A DNA stretch of 64,000 nucleotides from Natronobacterium gregoryi SP2 (GTDB taxonomy: Archaea; Halobacteriota; Halobacteria; Halobacteriales; Natrialbaceae): contig NC_019792.1 in the NCBI RefSeq assembly GCF_000230715.2, positions 310,001 through 374,000 of the forward strand. The letters run 5' to 3'. Within the stretch, counting starts at the first letter, position 1. Each line of letters opens with the position of its first letter. Under the pieces are notes generated by a model. The model was not told the DNA's origin and did no database searches. It saw nothing but the letters and a program-made list of their open reading frames with translations. A program made the position numbers and the translations under genes. Of this stretch, positions 18,548 to 25,264 are shown piece by piece.

Positions 18548-20251
18548 ATGCGTGGGAGACGGTTAGCTACGACGGAAGAACTTGTTGCGATAGTGAGTCC
18601 GGCCGAAGAGAGTGAAGCGGCCGTTCAGCGACTCGAGACGTGGGCCGACGACAACGGCCTGGGACTACAGACGGTCGACGTCGGGGACGACATCGACGAC
18701 GTCTACGCTCCCGACAGCGAGACGCTGGGCGTGACGGTCGGCGGCGACGGCACTTTTCTCGAGGGGATCAAACAGTTCTCACCGAGAAACGTGCCGATCC
18801 TGGGGGTCAACACTGGGACACTTGCCTTCCTCGTCCGGGTCGACGTCGACGACCTCGAGGCGGCGCTGACGGAGGTCGTCCAGGGACGGGCGACGATCGA
18901 CGAGCGCCAGCAGGTCGCCGTCGAGGCCAACGGCCTCGAAGCGACGGGGATCAACGACGTCATGGTCAAGAACGTTCGGCCAGAGAACCCGATCGATCGA
19001 AAGATCACGAAACTCGACGTGTTCGCCGACGGCCAGTACGTCGGCGAGTACGACGGCACTGGCCTTGCGATCGCGACGCCGACGGGGTCGACCGGTATCT
19101 CGCTGTCCGCGAACGGGCCGGTCCACAACCCGACGAACAACTCGTGTCTGCAGATCGTCCCGTTGCACACTCACCGGATGGGGGTTCGGCCGCTGATCGT
19201 CAGCGAGAACACGGAGATTCGTATCGTCTGTTCCGAGGAGACGGACCTACTGGTCGACGGCGGCCGGTTTCACGAACAACTCGAGACCGACGACGTCATC
19301 ACCGTTACGGGTGCCAAAAGCACTGCGAACGTCGTGCGAACGAGTTACGACGACGACTTCTTCACGGCGATCAGCGAGTTGCTGGGCTGGGGGGCACGTG
19401 ACACGGCGGGGAAATCCATTCCGCCGACCATCTCGAGCGAGAGCGAGCCGGATTCTTTCGAGGAACGGGCGTGTGAACTCGCAAAGGAGGCCGTCCGGAG
19501 CGTCAGGAATCCGCTCAGGAACCTCCACGGAAAAGTCGAGAAAGAGCGGTACAAGACCGACGCGTCGGACGTCATCACGGAGGCCGACTACCTTTCGGAG
19601 AACATCATCACGACTGCCATCGAGAACGAGTATCCCGCCCACACGATCCTGACCGAGGAGGGAGTCCACACCGAGACCGGCAGCGAGTACACCTGGCTGA
19701 TCGACCCCCTCGACGGCACCGGGAACTACGCCAACGGCAACCCCAACTACGCCGTCTCGCTCGCCCTGCTGGAAAACGACGAGCCAATCGTCGGCGTCGT
19801 CTACGCACCCGAGACGGACGAACTCTGGAGCGCGATCGCCGGCGAGGGTGCCTACAAGAACGGGGTGCCGGTCACGGTGACCGACCGGAACGCCCTCGAG
19901 GAGAGCATGCTGATGTCCGGCTACGATCCCGAAGGGACTTTCCTCTCGTACTTCTACGACGGCACGCGTGGCGTCCGACGACTGGGATCGGCTGCGCTCC
20001 ACCTTTGCTATCTCGCCAACGGGAGCGCCGACGCAGTCTGGGAGTACGACACCTATCCCTGGGACGTCGCGGCGGGGATCGTCATCGCGCGGGAAGCGGG
20101 GGCGTCCGTGACCGACTCGAGTGGGACGCCGTTCGAAGTGTACGGCGAAAAGGATCGACAGGAACTCGTCGCGTCGAACGGGCACATTCACGACGACCTG
20201 ACGACGCGACTCCGTGACAACGAACACCTCTACAACACGGTCGACAACTGA
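18548..20251 (+). CDS. NAD kinase fused to inositol-monophosphatase-type phosphatase
   Basis: A 567-residue fusion. Residues 1-285 form an NAD kinase with the GGDGTFLEG motif (65-73), NTGTLAFL, and the substrate loop TPTGSTGISLSANGP, so it should make NADP from NAD. Residues 300-567 form a Mg-dependent IMPase-type phosphatase with ILTEEG (metal ligand Glu), IDPLDGTGNYANG (386-396) and YPWDVAAG. A similar pairing in Methanocaldococcus MJ0917 makes and removes NADP, but there the phosphatase comes first. A regulated NADP(H) pool role is therefore likely; the phosphatase substrate is inferred. Confidence 0.88.
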   Translation: MRGRRLATTEELVAIVSPAEESEAAVQRLETWADDNGLGLQTVDVGDDIDDVYAPDSETLGVTVGGDGTFLEGIKQFSPRNVPILGVNTGTLAFLVRVDVDDLEAALTEVVQGRATIDERQQVAVEANGLEATGINDVMVKNVRPENPIDRKITKLDVFADGQYVGEYDGTGLAIATPTGSTGISLSANGPVHNPTNNSCLQIVPLHTHRMGVRPLIVSENTEIRIVCSEETDLLVDGGRFHEQLETDDVITVTGAKSTANVVRTSYDDDFFTAISELLGWGARDTAGKSIPPTISSESEPDSFEERACELAKEAVRSVRNPLRNLHGKVEKERYKTDASDVITEADYLSENIITTAIENEYPAHTILTEEGVHTETGSEYTWLIDPLDGTGNYANGNPNYAVSLALLENDEPIVGVVYAPETDELWSAIAGEGAYKNGVPVTVTDRNALEESMLMSGYDPEGTFLSYFYDGTRGVRRLGSAALHLCYLANGSADAVWEYDTYPWDVAAGIVIAREAGASVTDSSGTPFEVYGEKDRQELVASNGHIHDDLTTRLRDNEHLYNTVDN

Positions 20252-20463: not shown

Positions 20464-20474
20464 CTTTTTATTTA
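20464..20474 (+). promoter_or_regulatory. TATA box of the iron island
   Basis: The AT run TTTTTATTTA lies about 25 nt before the ATG at 20493. The transcript would therefore start at or next to the start codon (leaderless). The operator at 20470-20487 overlaps its end and covers the start site. Confidence 0.6.
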
Positions 20475-20487
20475 GGCTAGCCTAAAT
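20470..20487. promoter_or_regulatory. DtxR/IdeR-type metal-dependent operator (perfect palindrome)
   Basis: ATTTAGGCTAGCCTAAAT is a perfect 18-bp palindrome with the TTAGG...CCTAA core bound by DtxR-family iron or manganese repressors, which haloarchaea possess (SirR/Idr proteins). It sits between the TATA box and the start codon of the first nicotianamine-synthase-like gene, a position that would block transcription. A related site precedes the FeoA-fusion gene. Confidence 0.8.
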
Positions 20488-20492
20488 CATCT

Positions 20493-21062
20493 ATGGGGAA
20501 GATAGCGAAAACCGTGGCGGGACTCGAGAAGTCGTGTACTCCGGCACCGCTGGCGTTCAGTTGGTACACCCGGTTTTACCGGTCCGTCGTCGACAGAGAG
20601 ATAGAACTCGCAGATATCGACGCGGAAGATCGGATTCTCAACGTCGGATGTGGGGGGATGCCGTTTACGACTGCCTTACTCGCGAAACGAACTGGCGCAA
20701 CCGTCTACGCTCTCGATCACGATCCCGCGGTCGTCCAGGAGGCACGACGGAACCTCGAGCGTGCCGGTGTCGCAAACGAAGTTGAAATCGTCGTCGGAGA
20801 CGGACGGGACGTTCTCGGCGATGGGTCCAGACTTCCCGAGTCGTGCTCGGTCGCAGTCGTCGCTTTGCAGGCCGAACCGAAAGACGAGATCCTGCACCAG
20901 TACCGAAATACGACCGATGGCCCCGAACGAGTCGTCGTGCGCCAACCGCGCGCGCTCGTCGCCGGCGACTACGATCGGGTAACCGACTGTGAGGATCGAA
21001 CTGGGGCCGTCAGACATCGGATGCCGACCTTCGACCGGTCGCTATTGTTCGGCTCGGCATGA
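20493..21062 (+). CDS. Nicotianamine-synthase-like / Rossmann methyltransferase-fold protein
   Basis: A 189-residue SAM-binding Rossmann protein. The loop ILNVGCGGMPFTTALLAKR (48-66) and VYALDHDP (71-78) resemble the SAM-binding region of nicotianamine synthases (pattern G-C/S-G-x-x-P-x-T) more than typical methyltransferases. It is a short paralogue of the protein at 22357, sharing YxRxFYxxVVxRE and this loop. If it is NAS-like, it would transfer aminocarboxypropyl groups from SAM to build a metal chelator; that is inference. The operator and leaderless promoter directly upstream indicate iron control. Its stop overlaps the next start (ATGA). Confidence 0.65.
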   Translation: MGKIAKTVAGLEKSCTPAPLAFSWYTRFYRSVVDREIELADIDAEDRILNVGCGGMPFTTALLAKRTGATVYALDHDPAVVQEARRNLERAGVANEVEIVVGDGRDVLGDGSRLPESCSVAVVALQAEPKDEILHQYRNTTDGPERVVVRQPRALVAGDYDRVTDCEDRTGAVRHRMPTFDRSLLFGSA

Positions 21063-22093
21063 AGCGTAACGTGGCGCTCTGGGCGCTTGGCTGTGGGGTT
21101 CTCGTCCTCCTGGTCGTCGCTGCCGGCTGGTCGGAGCTACGCGCTGGCGTCGCTCACGCCCAGGGTCGCATCATGGTCGGGCTCCTGGCGCTTCAGGTGC
21201 TCACGCTCGGGCTGATCGCCTACCAGTGGCAGTTCGTACTCCGGCGGGCCGACGTCGACCTTCACTATCGAGAGGTGCTCGCAGTCACGCTCGCGGGTGG
21301 GTTCGTAGAGAGCGTGACGCCGTCGTCGAAACTGGGTGGGGAAGCCGCCAAAGTGTACCTGTTTCGGCGGTTGAGCGGAGCGGAGTACGGAACGCTGTCG
21401 TCGGCGTTGCTGGTACACAAGTTCGTCTCCCTGCTCCCGTTTTTCGGACTCTGTCTCCTCTTTGCCACCGTCGGTCTGCTGAGACTGGAACTCGCGCTCC
21501 CGTCGTCCGCACTGCTGGCCATCGGCGCTACTGGTGCTTTGGCCGGCATCGTGGGAGGAACGCTCGTGCTGATGCGGACAGAGCAGTTTCCGGGCACGCT
21601 CCCCGGTTTCGGCCGTATCGACCTGCCAACCTGGGTCGGGCAGCGTGTCGGTGACGCGATAGCGTTCGCTCGGGACGCCGTTGTGGGAGCGACGACGGTG
21701 CTTTCGCCGTGGGAACGGCGCTGGCTCTACGGGATCTCACTCGTCGTCTGGGGTCTGTACCCGATCAAGATCTACGTCGTCGCGCTCATGCTCGGGCTAG
21801 ACGTGAGTCTCTTCCTCGCGACGATCGGGACGGGACTCGCGTATCTCGCCAGTATCGTGCCGTTTTCGCCGGGCGGACTCGGTTCGTTCGAAGGCGTGCT
21901 TGCAGGCGTCTTCGTCGCTGGTGGGACGACGTTCGCCGACGGGATGGCGGTCTCGGTGCTGTCACGACTCGTCACGTTCTGGTTCCCGCTCGTGGTGTCT
22001 GCGCTCGCGACGGCGTGGCTACTCGGTTCCGACTATCGACTGTCGCCCGACGACCTCGGGCTTCCGTCGCTTTCCGACCGACTCCGAAAGTGA
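21059..22093 (+). CDS. UPF0104/lysylphosphatidylglycerol-synthase-TM family membrane protein
   Basis: A 344-residue integral membrane protein with about eight helices, related to the TM domain of MprF and to the AglD C-terminal region. Family landmarks are FVESVTPSSKLGGEAAKVYL near residue 80 and FSPGGLGSFEGVLAGVF near 275, which match the conserved P-x-x-x-G-E and PGGLG-x-E motifs. The start overlaps the preceding gene's stop, so it is coupled to the NAS-like protein. In this context it may move the partner's product or a lipid-linked molecule across the membrane, but that is inference. Confidence 0.8.
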   Translation: MKRNVALWALGCGVLVLLVVAAGWSELRAGVAHAQGRIMVGLLALQVLTLGLIAYQWQFVLRRADVDLHYREVLAVTLAGGFVESVTPSSKLGGEAAKVYLFRRLSGAEYGTLSSALLVHKFVSLLPFFGLCLLFATVGLLRLELALPSSALLAIGATGALAGIVGGTLVLMRTEQFPGTLPGFGRIDLPTWVGQRVGDAIAFARDAVVGATTVLSPWERRWLYGISLVVWGLYPIKIYVVALMLGLDVSLFLATIGTGLAYLASIVPFSPGGLGSFEGVLAGVFVAGGTTFADGMAVSVLSRLVTFWFPLVVSALATAWLLGSDYRLSPDDLGLPSLSDRLRK

Positions 22094-22120
22094 CAATGAT
22101 CAGCGGAAGTCCACGGATTC

Positions 22121-22140
22121 ATACGGTTTGTTGTCCGTAT
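22121..22140. repeat. 20-bp solo palindrome, deletion derivative of the repeat family
   Basis: ATACGGTTTGTTGTCCGTAT keeps both outer ends of the long-armed palindrome (ATACGG and CCGTAT) but lacks the whole interior, as if the element had collapsed. It lies 27 bases after the stop of the membrane-protein gene inside the iron island. Confidence 0.6.
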
Positions 22141-22318
22141 CAGTCCTGTCCCTTACCCCACAAGTCTCAGAAGTTTAGTCGGGGTGAGGACGTCAACCCG
22201 CCACACCCCGAACTGCGGACTGTTCCGCTGCAAGAAGCGCGAGTAGTATTTAAACGCGGCATATGAGGGGATGGCGTTGCTGAATTACTAACTGGTGGGA
22301 ATCGGATTTTCACTTTAC

Positions 22319-22334
22319 TTTAGGAGGGCCTAAA
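22319..22334. promoter_or_regulatory. Second DtxR-type operator, before the FeoA fusion
   Basis: TTTAGGAGGGCCTAAA has the same six-base arms (TTTAGG, CCTAAA) as the perfect site at 20471-20486, with a different centre (13 of 16 identical). It is 22 bases before the ATG of the NAS-like/FeoA fusion gene. The pair implies that both halves of the island respond to the same metal-sensing repressor. Confidence 0.72.
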
Positions 22335-22356
22335 ATCAGACACGAGTCACTCTTCC

Positions 22357-23397
22357 ATGTTGGCATCGCAAGCGTACGAGGGGGGCCAGAAACAGGAAAC
22401 TGGTGAACGACCGACCGAACAAGTGGGTGGAAAACGGTCTCACGATGGACGTCTGGAAGCCGAAGAGTCCGATCCGCCGTCACGCACGTTGTCGACGAGC
22501 AATGCGATACTACAGCGGTTCGAGCGACTCGATGGGGTCTCACAGACGTTCGGCGACCTCTACTCTCGACTCTTCTACGAACACGTCGTCGAGCGGGAAC
22601 TCGGTATCGCCGATCCGGACGAGCAAGCGACCGTACTCCAGATCGGTTGCGGGCCGCTCCCGATGACGGCGATCACCCTCGCCGAACGAGGATACGACGT
22701 CGTCGCAGTCGACATCGATCCGGACGCCGTCGGGGCTGCTCGCGACGCAATCAGCGAGCGGGAGCTAACCGACAAGATCGACATCGTCGTCAGCGACGGC
22801 TGCACGATCGATACGTCCGGATTCGACGTCATCTGGCTGGCGTTTCACGTCGCTCCCCGGTCCGAACTCGTCGACTCGACGGTGTCGAGTCTCGAGCCCG
22901 ACCAGACGCTCGTCTACCGCCGTCCCCGGAGTTGGGCTCGAGCGATCTTCCCGTCTGACTCGCCACCGATACCGGACGACGTCTCGCTCGAAACGGTCAC
23001 CCAGCGATTCGGGAAAGAGAGCGTTGTCGTCTGTCACGATCCCGGCAACTGTGCGGACTGTGACGACGCGGCCGACTGTCCAGCATCGGACGAAACGCCG
23101 GCGAGGACCGATTCGGAACTCGTTGCCGACGCGGAGTCGGCCGGACCGACGCTCGACTCGCTACAGATCGGCGAACGGGCGACCATCAGAACAGTTCCCG
23201 ACCACGACTTGTTGCCCTCGCTCGGTGTTCGACCGGGCAAGGACGTTCGCCTCGAGACTGGACAGGCGTTCAACGGCCCACTCGTGGTGACGGTCGATGA
23301 GCGAACCGTCGCACTCGATCGAACGCTGGCCGGCCGAATTCGTCTCGAATCGACGCCGCAGGGCCGGACAGAGCCGACGCCGACCGACGGATTCTGA
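22357..23397 (+). CDS. Nicotianamine-synthase-like domain fused to FeoA
   Basis: A 346-residue two-domain protein. Residues 1-45 are a polar lead. Residues 50-215 are a SAM-binding Rossmann domain with VLQIGCGPLPMTAITLAERG (93-112) and VVAVDIDPDAVGAARDA; GCGPLPMT closely resembles the GSGPLPLT loop of nicotianamine synthases. A linker holds four cysteines at 226, 232, 235 and 241 (CHDPGNCADCDDAADC), a likely metal site. Residues 256-336 are a FeoA SH3-like domain (LGVRPGKDVRLETGQAFNGP). It stops four bases before feoB, so it probably supplies the FeoA function to FeoB. The enzymatic activity is inferred. Confidence 0.75.
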   Translation: MLASQAYEGGQKQETGERPTEQVGGKRSHDGRLEAEESDPPSRTLSTSNAILQRFERLDGVSQTFGDLYSRLFYEHVVERELGIADPDEQATVLQIGCGPLPMTAITLAERGYDVVAVDIDPDAVGAARDAISERELTDKIDIVVSDGCTIDTSGFDVIWLAFHVAPRSELVDSTVSSLEPDQTLVYRRPRSWARAIFPSDSPPIPDDVSLETVTQRFGKESVVVCHDPGNCADCDDAADCPASDETPARTDSELVADAESAGPTLDSLQIGERATIRTVPDHDLLPSLGVRPGKDVRLETGQAFNGPLVVTVDERTVALDRTLAGRIRLESTPQGRTEPTPTDGF

Positions 23398-23401
23398 ATG
23401 A

Positions 23402-25264
23402 ATGTCGAACGATTCCACGGATGCCGATGCTGAACGTCCCCGCGTCGCACTGATCGGGCCGCCGAACGTCGGCAAGAGCGTGCTGTTCAACGCGTTGACT
23501 GGACTCGACGCCGGCGTCGCCAACTACTCCGGGACGACCGTCGAGTACAAGCGGGGGAGTGCCAGGTTTCGCGACCACGAGACGACGCTCGTCGACGTTC
23601 CCGGAACGTACTCGCTTGCGGCGACCAACGAGGCCGAACAACTCGCCGTCGATATGCTCGAGGGTGAGTGTGACCTCGTCATCTGCGTGCTGGACGCGGT
23701 CAACCTGGAGAACAGTCTGCATCTCTTGCTCGAGGTGCTCGAGTACGACATTCCAGTCGTCGTCGCGATCAATCGAGTCGACCTCCTCGAGAAGGAAGGC
23801 AAACGGCTGCGTCCGAACTACCTTGCTTCTGCTCTCGGTCTGCCCGTCGTTCCGACAATCGCGACGATCGGCAAGGGGTTCGACGACCTCGTCGCTGCAA
23901 CCGCAGCGACGCTTGCGGACTCTTCTCATGCCGGCCCACGACAGCACGTGGCCGGAGCTGGTCTCGCCGAGGAAAGCGATGGCGACGAAAACCCGACCGC
24001 TGGCGAGGAACCGGACGGCGTGAGAGAAGCCGAAACGATTCCACCGCTCGAAAGCAGAGTCGACGACGGCCCGAGCTGGGAGCGAGCGGGAGAACTCTGT
24101 ACAGAGGTCGTCGTCGAAGACGACGAACCGACAGCGCACGAACCCGGCTACCTGGAACGGTGGAGTGATCACCTAGTCAAACCGTGGCCTGGCCTGCCAG
24201 TTGCGGGACTCGTCCTGGTCGGGACGTTCGCACTGGTCGTCGGCGTCGGGATGGGGATCAGGCAGTATCTGATGATCCCGTTCTTCGAGGGGTTGGTATT
24301 TCCCCAGATCGAGAGTGCCGTCCAGGCAGTGACGGCACCCGGATTTTATCGGGACGTACTCATCGGCGACTACGGGTTCCTCATCAAAGGCCTCGAGTGG
24401 CCGTTCGCGCTGGTGTTGCCCTACGTCGTTTCGTTTTACTTCGCACTGAGTCTGCTAGAGGACAGTGGATACCTGCCGCGCCTGGCAGTGCTGCTCGATG
24501 GCCTGTTCGAACGGATGGGGCTGGCTGGAAGCAACGTCGTCCCCCTGTTGTTGGGGTATGGCTGTGCCATTCCCGGTATTACGGCGACGAGAGCGACGTC
24601 CAACAGCGAAAAGCAGCGGCTGACGATGATGTTGATGATCACGCTCGCAGTGCCGTGTGTCGCCCAGACCGGCGCGTTCATTGCGTTGCTGGCCGAGGCA
24701 ACCGTTTTACTGGTCGTCGCGGTCTTTGTGGTCTCGTTTGCGGCACTCGGCCTCGCAGGGCTGGTTCTCGACGCCACGCTGGAGGGGACTCGACAGCCGA
24801 CCGTCGCCGACGTTCCACCGCTTTTGATGCCACCAGTCCGTCAAACGTACCGCAAAGTCTGGATGCGGTTGAAACAGTTCGTCTCCGGTGGCGCGCTCCA
24901 CATGGTCTACGCTATCGGCTTCGCGTCTGTCCTGTACGAACTCGGCGTACTGGAAGTCGCCAGCCAGTATCTGGAACCGCTCGTCGTCGGCTGGCTCAAC
25001 CTGCCGGCAGAGGCTTCGACGCCACTGATCCTCGGAATCGTCAGGCGAGAACTGACCGTCCTTCCACTGCTCGAGATGGACCTCGCGATGGGACAGCTGT
25101 TCGTCGGAGCTGTCGTCGGCCTGTTCTACGTCCCCTGTATCGCGGTGTTTGCCACCGTCGCCCAGGAGTTCTCGCTTCGTGCTGCCGGCCTGGTCCTCGT
25201 GATGACGATGGCCGTGTCGTTCTTCGTCGGCGGCCTGTTCGCCCAACTTTTCGTGGTGTTTTGA
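23402..25264 (+). CDS. feoB: Ferrous iron transport protein B
   Basis: GTP-gated Fe(II) importer of the cytoplasmic membrane. The 620-residue protein has an N-terminal G domain with G1 GPPNVGKS (19-26), the G2 region GVANYSGTTVEYKRG, G3 DVPGTY (65-70) and G4 AINRVD. An acidic, poorly conserved linker (about 165-255) replaces most of the usual GDI region. The membrane part follows, with FeoB gate motifs PLLLGYGCAIPGITATR and VPCVAQTGAFIALL and the second gate LGIVRRELTVLPLLEMD. Regulation is expected from the iron-type operators upstream. Confidence 0.94.
   Translation: MSNDSTDADAERPRVALIGPPNVGKSVLFNALTGLDAGVANYSGTTVEYKRGSARFRDHETTLVDVPGTYSLAATNEAEQLAVDMLEGECDLVICVLDAVNLENSLHLLLEVLEYDIPVVVAINRVDLLEKEGKRLRPNYLASALGLPVVPTIATIGKGFDDLVAATAATLADSSHAGPRQHVAGAGLAEESDGDENPTAGEEPDGVREAETIPPLESRVDDGPSWERAGELCTEVVVEDDEPTAHEPGYLERWSDHLVKPWPGLPVAGLVLVGTFALVVGVGMGIRQYLMIPFFEGLVFPQIESAVQAVTAPGFYRDVLIGDYGFLIKGLEWPFALVLPYVVSFYFALSLLEDSGYLPRLAVLLDGLFERMGLAGSNVVPLLLGYGCAIPGITATRATSNSEKQRLTMMLMITLAVPCVAQTGAFIALLAEATVLLVVAVFVVSFAALGLAGLVLDATLEGTRQPTVADVPPLLMPPVRQTYRKVWMRLKQFVSGGALHMVYAIGFASVLYELGVLEVASQYLEPLVVGWLNLPAEASTPLILGIVRRELTVLPLLEMDLAMGQLFVGAVVGLFYVPCIAVFATVAQEFSLRAAGLVLVMTMAVSFFVGGLFAQLFVVF

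Follow-up and report, generated by a model that had tools for sequence, protein, structure and literature searches.

Two compact, predicted nicotianamine synthase-like enzymes encoded with FeoA and FeoB in archaea and bacteria

A 64,000-nucleotide window (positions 310001-374000) of the closed 3.79-Mb chromosome of the haloarchaeon Natronobacterium gregoryi SP2 (G000) carries four co-directional genes, here called A, M, B and FeoB, all of which were confirmed to be present. Profile and structure comparisons place A and B in the nicotianamine synthase (NAS)/CntL superfamily as compact members, to be called NAS-like and not certified NAS. We propose that the gene set forms an iron-starvation module in which the S-adenosylmethionine (SAM)-dependent synthesis of a small iron ligand would be paired with Fe(II) import, and we regard this whole model as evenly balanced between right and wrong. 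Sequence-level support extends to the gene set, the homology and co-occurrence of its members, the fusion of B to FeoA, the operators and the horizontal spread of the unit.

In this set (Table 1) there is an overlap of 4 bp between A and M and a gap of 4 bp between B and FeoB. M belongs to the UPF0104/LPG flippase-like family, matching PF03706 (LPG_synthase_TM) with an E-value of 1.6e-41 and 143.2 bits against a cut-off of 33.4, and TIGR00374 with an E-value of 5.6e-25. The permease contains FeoB_N (5.7e-47), Gate (1.9e-27) and FeoB_C domains, and B ends in a FeoA domain (PF04023, residues 265-331, E 1.2e-11), all of them over the Pfam cut-offs; against TIGR00437, FeoB scores 316.0 bits, just over the cut-off of 315.65. 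Judged by the scores, this is probably the sole genuine FeoB of the genome, and the weaker FeoB_N matches are probably other GTPases. An earlier, sequence-only reading of the window had listed two Rossmann proteins with GCGGMPFT and GCGPLPMT loops, a membrane protein, a FeoA fusion and FeoB, an inventory that gene calls and Pfam bear out. It had also described M as an eight-helix protein; M is indeed a membrane protein, but the helix count is approximate, a crude hydropathy scan giving about 7-8 hydrophobic blocks.

Table 1 Features of the gene set in the N. gregoryi window (aa, amino acids)
Feature	Position	Strand	Description
Operator 1, DtxR-type	20471-20486	none	TTTAGGCTAGCCTAAA; gene A promoter; adjoins TATA-like TTTTTATT
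Gene A	20493-21062	+	189 aa; SAM loop GCGGMPFT; predicted compact NAS/CntL-superfamily SAM enzyme
Gene M	21059-22093	+	344 aa; UPF0104/LPG-synthase-TM (flippase-like) membrane protein, coupled to A
Operator 2, DtxR-type	22319-22334	none	TTTAGGAGGGCCTAAA; gene B promoter
Gene B	22357-23397	+	346 aa; loop GCGPLPMT; NAS-like domain at about residues 45-210, then Cys motif, then C-terminal FeoA
FeoB	23402-25264	+	Ferrous iron permease of an operon-specific clade

Relationship of A and B to nicotianamine synthase and CntL

Profile searches of the PDB placed both proteins closest to the archaeal NAS MtNAS and to CntL. With a joint profile of six family members the top match was MtNAS (1e-15), followed by CntL (4e-11). 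The A profile (17 sequences) found CntL at 1.7e-15 and MtNAS at 1.5e-12, with the next methyltransferase-fold protein at 1.6e-7, and the B profile (16 sequences) found MtNAS at 1.4e-21 and CntL at 6.5e-15, with the next at 1.1e-8. The margin of the stronger of these two matches over the following methyltransferase-fold protein is about eight orders of magnitude with both the A and the joint profile and about thirteen with the B profile. Good AlphaFold2 models were obtained with a predicted local distance difference test (pLDDT) of 89.9 and a predicted template-modelling score (pTM) of 0.88 for A, and 87.2 and 0.82 for B. When these were submitted to Foldseek, MtNAS structures took ranks 1-4 for both proteins, with CntL close behind.

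The residues shared with NAS were compared in a MAFFT alignment of 27 A, 25 B and seven archaeal NAS sequences. All 59 sequences have Tyr in the column of MtNAS Tyr107 (AtNAS1 Tyr106), 27/27 for A, 25/25 for B and 7/7 for NAS, and the loop G-x-G-x-x-P-x-(T/S) is present in 27/27 A, 24/25 B and 7/7 NAS. A Glu seven residues after the Tyr is common to A, B and NAS among the sequences inspected, and in both the A and the B family an invariant Glu precedes the Tyr by 17-18 residues, a likely though not certain equivalent of the catalytic Glu of NAS. The Tyr is Tyr29 in A and Tyr74 in B, and the invariant Glu is Glu12 in A and Glu56 in B. In MtNAS, Glu81 and Tyr107 deprotonate the substrate nitrogen (PMC10491745), and the plant enzyme AtNAS1 is killed by E77Q or Y106F (PMC10248798). 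MtNAS (PF03059; PDB 3FPE/3FPJ) is the best fold match, and has in common with A and B the GxGPxPxT/S loop, the Tyr and the later Glu as well as a segment of the (Q/x)A-E-P-K type. It differs from them in that A and B are two paralogues, placed with FeoAB and a flippase-like protein, whose NAS-like parts are of only about 190 aa. The tree resolves A (99/99), B (93/90) and NAS (100/99) as separate clades.

Several observations weigh against reading A and B as NAS. In NAS the catalytic Glu (MtNAS Glu81) stands 26-27 residues before the Tyr, and MAFFT left a gap that keeps the Glu81 equivalent unaligned. Both proteins lack the N-terminal helical domain, which in NAS closes the reaction chamber; each AlphaFold2 model has just two helices ahead of its first Rossmann strand. 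Neither protein reaches the PF03059 cut-off (B scores 23.2 bits against 27.1, with E 4.9e-5, and A is not listed), and a PF03059 search of the organism's own genome returned nothing over it. A and the first part of B match generic methyltransferase families in Pfam, which score about equally to or better than NAS in single-sequence scans, and hhalign does not discriminate, aligning B with generic methyltransferases at 4.2e-20 and with archaeal NAS at 1.5e-18. Because the N-terminal domain is missing and the PF03059 score lies below the cut-off, we describe A and B as NAS-like. To this extent the enzymes named in the sequence-only reading hold as superfamily kin, by PDB profiles, Foldseek ranks, loop and Tyr, but not as members of the Pfam family or as proteins of full NAS architecture. 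As for a grouping with ordinary methyltransferases, MtNAS and CntL came out best in both the PDB profile and the Foldseek searches, which leaves the NAS-like idea unrefuted.

CntL, the other closest relative, is the NAS-like aminobutyrate transferase of the opine metallophore systems (staphylopine cntKLM; pseudopaline), which likewise consist of a metal-regulated operon with membrane transport. The import partner here is FeoB and not a peptide-type ATP-binding cassette (ABC) system, and the putative exporter is UPF0104 and not of the CntE type. No opine dehydrogenase (CntM) or histidine racemase was noticed among the called neighbours, which were read by eye, no CntM profile search having been run.

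Conservation, spread and the FeoB clade

The family is rare in haloarchaea, with 6 of 391 genomes carrying it, and a single-pattern scan of 84,980 species (GTDB) gave 21 loci. The gene set recurs in haloarchaea, a methanogen-related genus, Thermoplasmata, Halanaerobiales, Clostridia, Spirochaetes, Cloacimonadota, Dehalococcoidia and Desulfonatronospira, and at least eight phylum-level groups, drawn from both domains, keep the linkage to FeoA/FeoB. Among haloarchaea the complete A-M-B-FeoA-FeoB set occurs in N. gregoryi and two further genomes (G128 and G317), with partial sets in G359 and G362. It is also found, with varying gene order, in the methanogen-related genus (G428, G494 and G511), a Thermoplasmata archaeon and a Spirochaetia bacterium, and in Halonatronum, Halanaerobiaceae, Halanaerobium polyolivorans and Dehalococcoidia, the last with FeoAB convergent. 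Cloacimonadota, Clostridia and Spirochaetaceae have sets in which no intact M adjoins the other genes, and A-M stands alone in Desulfonatronospira.

A and B are present together in 14 of the 16 genomes checked, the partner lying elsewhere in the genome when the two are not neighbours; the exceptions are one partial genome with only B and Natronolimnohabitans with only A. M of the A-associated clade was found in 19 of 23 genomes. Of the four that lack it, one is a Cloacimonadota metagenome-assembled genome (MAG), another a Spirochaetaceae MAG that keeps a short remnant, and two are fragmentary; most of these absences can be put down to incomplete assembly or to remnants. The conserved neighbourhood leaves the proposed association with Feo standing. 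It also speaks, as do the co-occurrence of A and B, the NAS/CntL best matches and the NAS-type loop, against A and B being ordinary methyltransferases that lie near feo genes by chance, a reading that the generic Pfam matches of both proteins favour and that we consider highly improbable.

We found no description of the gene set in the open-access literature searched (nicotianamine in haloarchaea; NAS with FeoB and archaea; FeoA/FeoB-methyltransferase fusions). The system had been put forward as undescribed and haloarchaeal; the first holds for that literature, but the second does not, the set being spread over both domains and many phyla, mostly in haloalkaliphiles. The parts are known; what appears new is the way they are combined, the shortened form of NAS and the occurrence in both domains.

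In the FeoB tree the 22 copies from the operons group as a single clade (98/93), separate from nine further FeoBs that include canonical FeoBs of the same genomes. This clade spans both domains, with a G1 motif that is mostly GPPNVGKS, and members from the methanogen-related genus nest with a Clostridia MAG in the trees of both FeoB (99/98) and A (97/91). The single cross-domain clade and this nesting make it very probable that the A-M-B-FeoA-FeoB unit has been transferred between archaea and bacteria. Plasmid searches for A and B gave no match, so that no plasmid vector is known. Genuine FeoB is uncommon in haloarchaea: with this FeoB as the query (E <= 1e-40), it was found in 3 of the 38 other genomes in a set of 39 Halobacteria genomes. 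At two loci of the methanogen-related genus (L113:2717-6306 and L146:11292-14870) a second FeoA and a canonical FeoB come immediately after the operon FeoB and M.

The fusion of B with FeoA occurs in five groups (haloarchaea, Thermoplasmata, the methanogen-related genus, Spirochaetes and Clostridia), and several bacteria have B as a gene of its own. As in the known Feo system, FeoA and a FeoB with all its domains are present; what differs is the separate FeoB clade and the repeated fusion of FeoA to a NAS-like enzyme, and no FeoC was noticed. The repeated fusions and the dedicated FeoB clade would also suit a scheme in which A and B act on FeoB or FeoA, or as regulators that bind SAM or methylthioadenosine (MTA), with FeoA-docked B modifying or gating FeoB and no metabolite being made. 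A mere sensor would not need the catalytic Tyr, kept in all copies, or the SAM loop, kept in nearly all; A would be a second enzyme unfused to Feo, and M would be left unexplained. We consider this scheme unlikely.

A Cys motif (VVVC-x6-C-x2-C-x5-CP, window 23025-23085) lies in the linker of B before FeoA, is kept in the five haloarchaeal B proteins only and is a possible metal or Fe-S site. In Fuchsiella (L142:3939-5307) a lone B gene adjoins a DUF4198 protein, possibly metal related. Just upstream of the N. gregoryi island (window 18548-20251) is a gene for a 567-aa fusion of an NAD kinase with an inositol monophosphatase-type phosphatase.

Operators and the predicted iron regulon

The two operators that the sequence-only reading had pointed out before A and B are exact TTTAGG-N4-CCTAAA palindromes, and the core TTAGG-N4-CCTAA is without mismatch at both. 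The 14-bp core lies 7 bp before the start codon of A and 23 bp before that of B. Genome-wide there are 12 TTAGG-N4-CCTAA sites, compared with 3 for the reversed pattern that served as the sole control. Several of the other sites stand at iron-transport-type ABC genes. They lie before an SBP_bac_6/BPD transporter, a Peripla_BP_2/FecCD/ATPase transporter and a TOBE_2 ABC ATPase, and the operator is also present ahead of a DUF7551/7552 gene. The genome also encodes DtxR-family proteins. These proteins, with the operators at A, B and the iron-type transporters, indicate an iron-type regulon with predicted repressor binding, so that the suggested iron regulation is upheld as far as sequence can show. 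Two tandem operators (G000:C1:1379195-1379242) lie upstream of the DUF7551/DUF7552 protein; its gene is a candidate new haloarchaeal target of iron regulation.

In the iron operons of N. gregoryi, G128, G317, G359, G362 and the Thermoplasmata genome, A and/or B stand behind exact DtxR boxes, and eight bacterial loci have Fur-like, near-consensus boxes (1-2 mismatches) in front of them. A Fur-family gene is directly upstream in Halonatronum (Pfam FUR, 9.1e-39) and, as read by eye, also in Fuchsiella and Desulfonatronospira. The scan for DtxR and Fur boxes gave none or only weak matches in Spirochaetes, Desulfonatronospira, Hb. polyolivorans, Dehalococcoidia and the methanogen-related genomes. 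Ligands of the NAS type bind several metals, and the DtxR and Fur families count Mn, Zn and Ni regulators among their members, so the module might handle another divalent metal (Mn, Ni or Zn) instead of iron. This is quite improbable, however, given the presence of FeoA/FeoB in the gene set and of the same operator at SBP_bac_6/BPD and FecCD/Peripla_BP_2 transporters and an ABC ATPase, which are the usual ferric-iron and siderophore types.

Predicted function and its alternatives

From homology and gene context we infer the aminocarboxypropyl chemistry, the nature of the product, the role of M, the direction of transport and the actual iron response. A and B are probably aminocarboxypropyl transferases, which would transfer 3-amino-3-carboxypropyl groups from SAM and release MTA rather than S-adenosylhomocysteine. 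Their product would be an aminocarboxylate iron ligand, and M may move either this ligand or a membrane-linked form to the other side of the membrane. B would be docked through FeoA on the cytoplasmic side of the dedicated FeoB, a tethering that would couple ligand supply to Fe(II) entry. Iron-responsive repressors would release the genes under low iron; for haloarchaea and Thermoplasmata these would be of the DtxR type, for bacteria Fur. The model draws on the Tyr found in 52/52 A and B sequences, the NAS-type loop, the PDB and Foldseek ranks, the Feo linkage, the B-FeoA fusions, the FeoB clade and the DtxR/Fur boxes.

Other points count against it. The enzymatic activity of A and B is itself a prediction. 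FeoB imports free Fe(II), and we know of no uptake of a chelate by FeoB. Proteins of PF03706 are known for lipids, not for small chelators. A second pair, A2-M2 (G000:C1:1961630-1963359; L032:7631-9360, - strand), lacks FeoA/FeoB; the same pair occurs in L034, L066, L088 and L090, making five haloarchaeal loci in all, and no iron box was found at these haloarchaeal paralogues. A2-M2 apparently has a function separate from iron, and because the pair exists in haloarchaea without Feo and iron box, the A-M function need not concern iron.

These features bring in the main rival, a lipid route in which A (with B) would modify a membrane lipid or head group with an aminocarboxypropyl group, and the modified lipid would be flipped outward by M, as MprF does with lysyl-phosphatidylglycerol. 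The charged, metal-binding lipid would concentrate Fe(II) at FeoB or adapt the membrane to low iron or high pH. A is nearly always paired with M, also where Feo is absent, as in the five A2-M2 loci and the lone A-M of Desulfonatronospira. PF03706/TIGR00374 proteins are lipid flippases; M is a predicted one, in the same family as the UPF0104/MprF-type proteins over the curated cut-off, but it forms a distinct clade that travels with A, and it is without the aminoacyl-phosphatidylglycerol synthase domain. An active site no longer covered by the N-terminal domain would be accessible to large acceptors, and aminocarboxypropyl transfer to lipid is known chemistry, performed by BtaA, which is however not homologous to NAS (PMC10491745). 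The operon occurs both in archaea with ether lipids and in bacteria with ester lipids, and the characterised members of the NAS superfamily all make soluble metallophores. We take the lipid route to be rather unlikely.

Iron is hardly soluble in haloalkaline waters, and soda lakes combine high carbonate, sulfide and pH. At least 14 of the 21 GTDB loci bear the Kulunda soda-lake sample names CSSed, T1Sed or CSBr; the CSSed10 and T1Sed datasets have been explained (PMC6146748), and CSSed16 and CSBr16 were assumed in this count to belong to the same series. Several isolates among the carriers are alkaliphiles. The recurrence of the gene set mostly in soda-lake microbes points to a horizontally shared way of handling scarce iron. 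There is, in our judgement, an even chance that a so far unnoticed mode of Fe(II) acquisition, in which the synthesis of a SAM-derived ligand is dedicated, enzyme-tethered and directly coupled to FeoB, evolved once and has since moved between the two domains, chiefly in haloalkaline waters.

In the usual view FeoB imports bare Fe(II), with no ligand biosynthesis attached. If our proposal is true, NAS-type enzymes tied to FeoA/FeoB would connect the Feo pathway with the chemistry of metallophores, with a candidate new metallophore or lipid as the product. The gene set would offer unusually small NAS-type enzymes, as well as natural enzyme-FeoA fusions useful for studying FeoA/FeoB control, and it provides a testable proposal for how soda-lake microbes may acquire iron.

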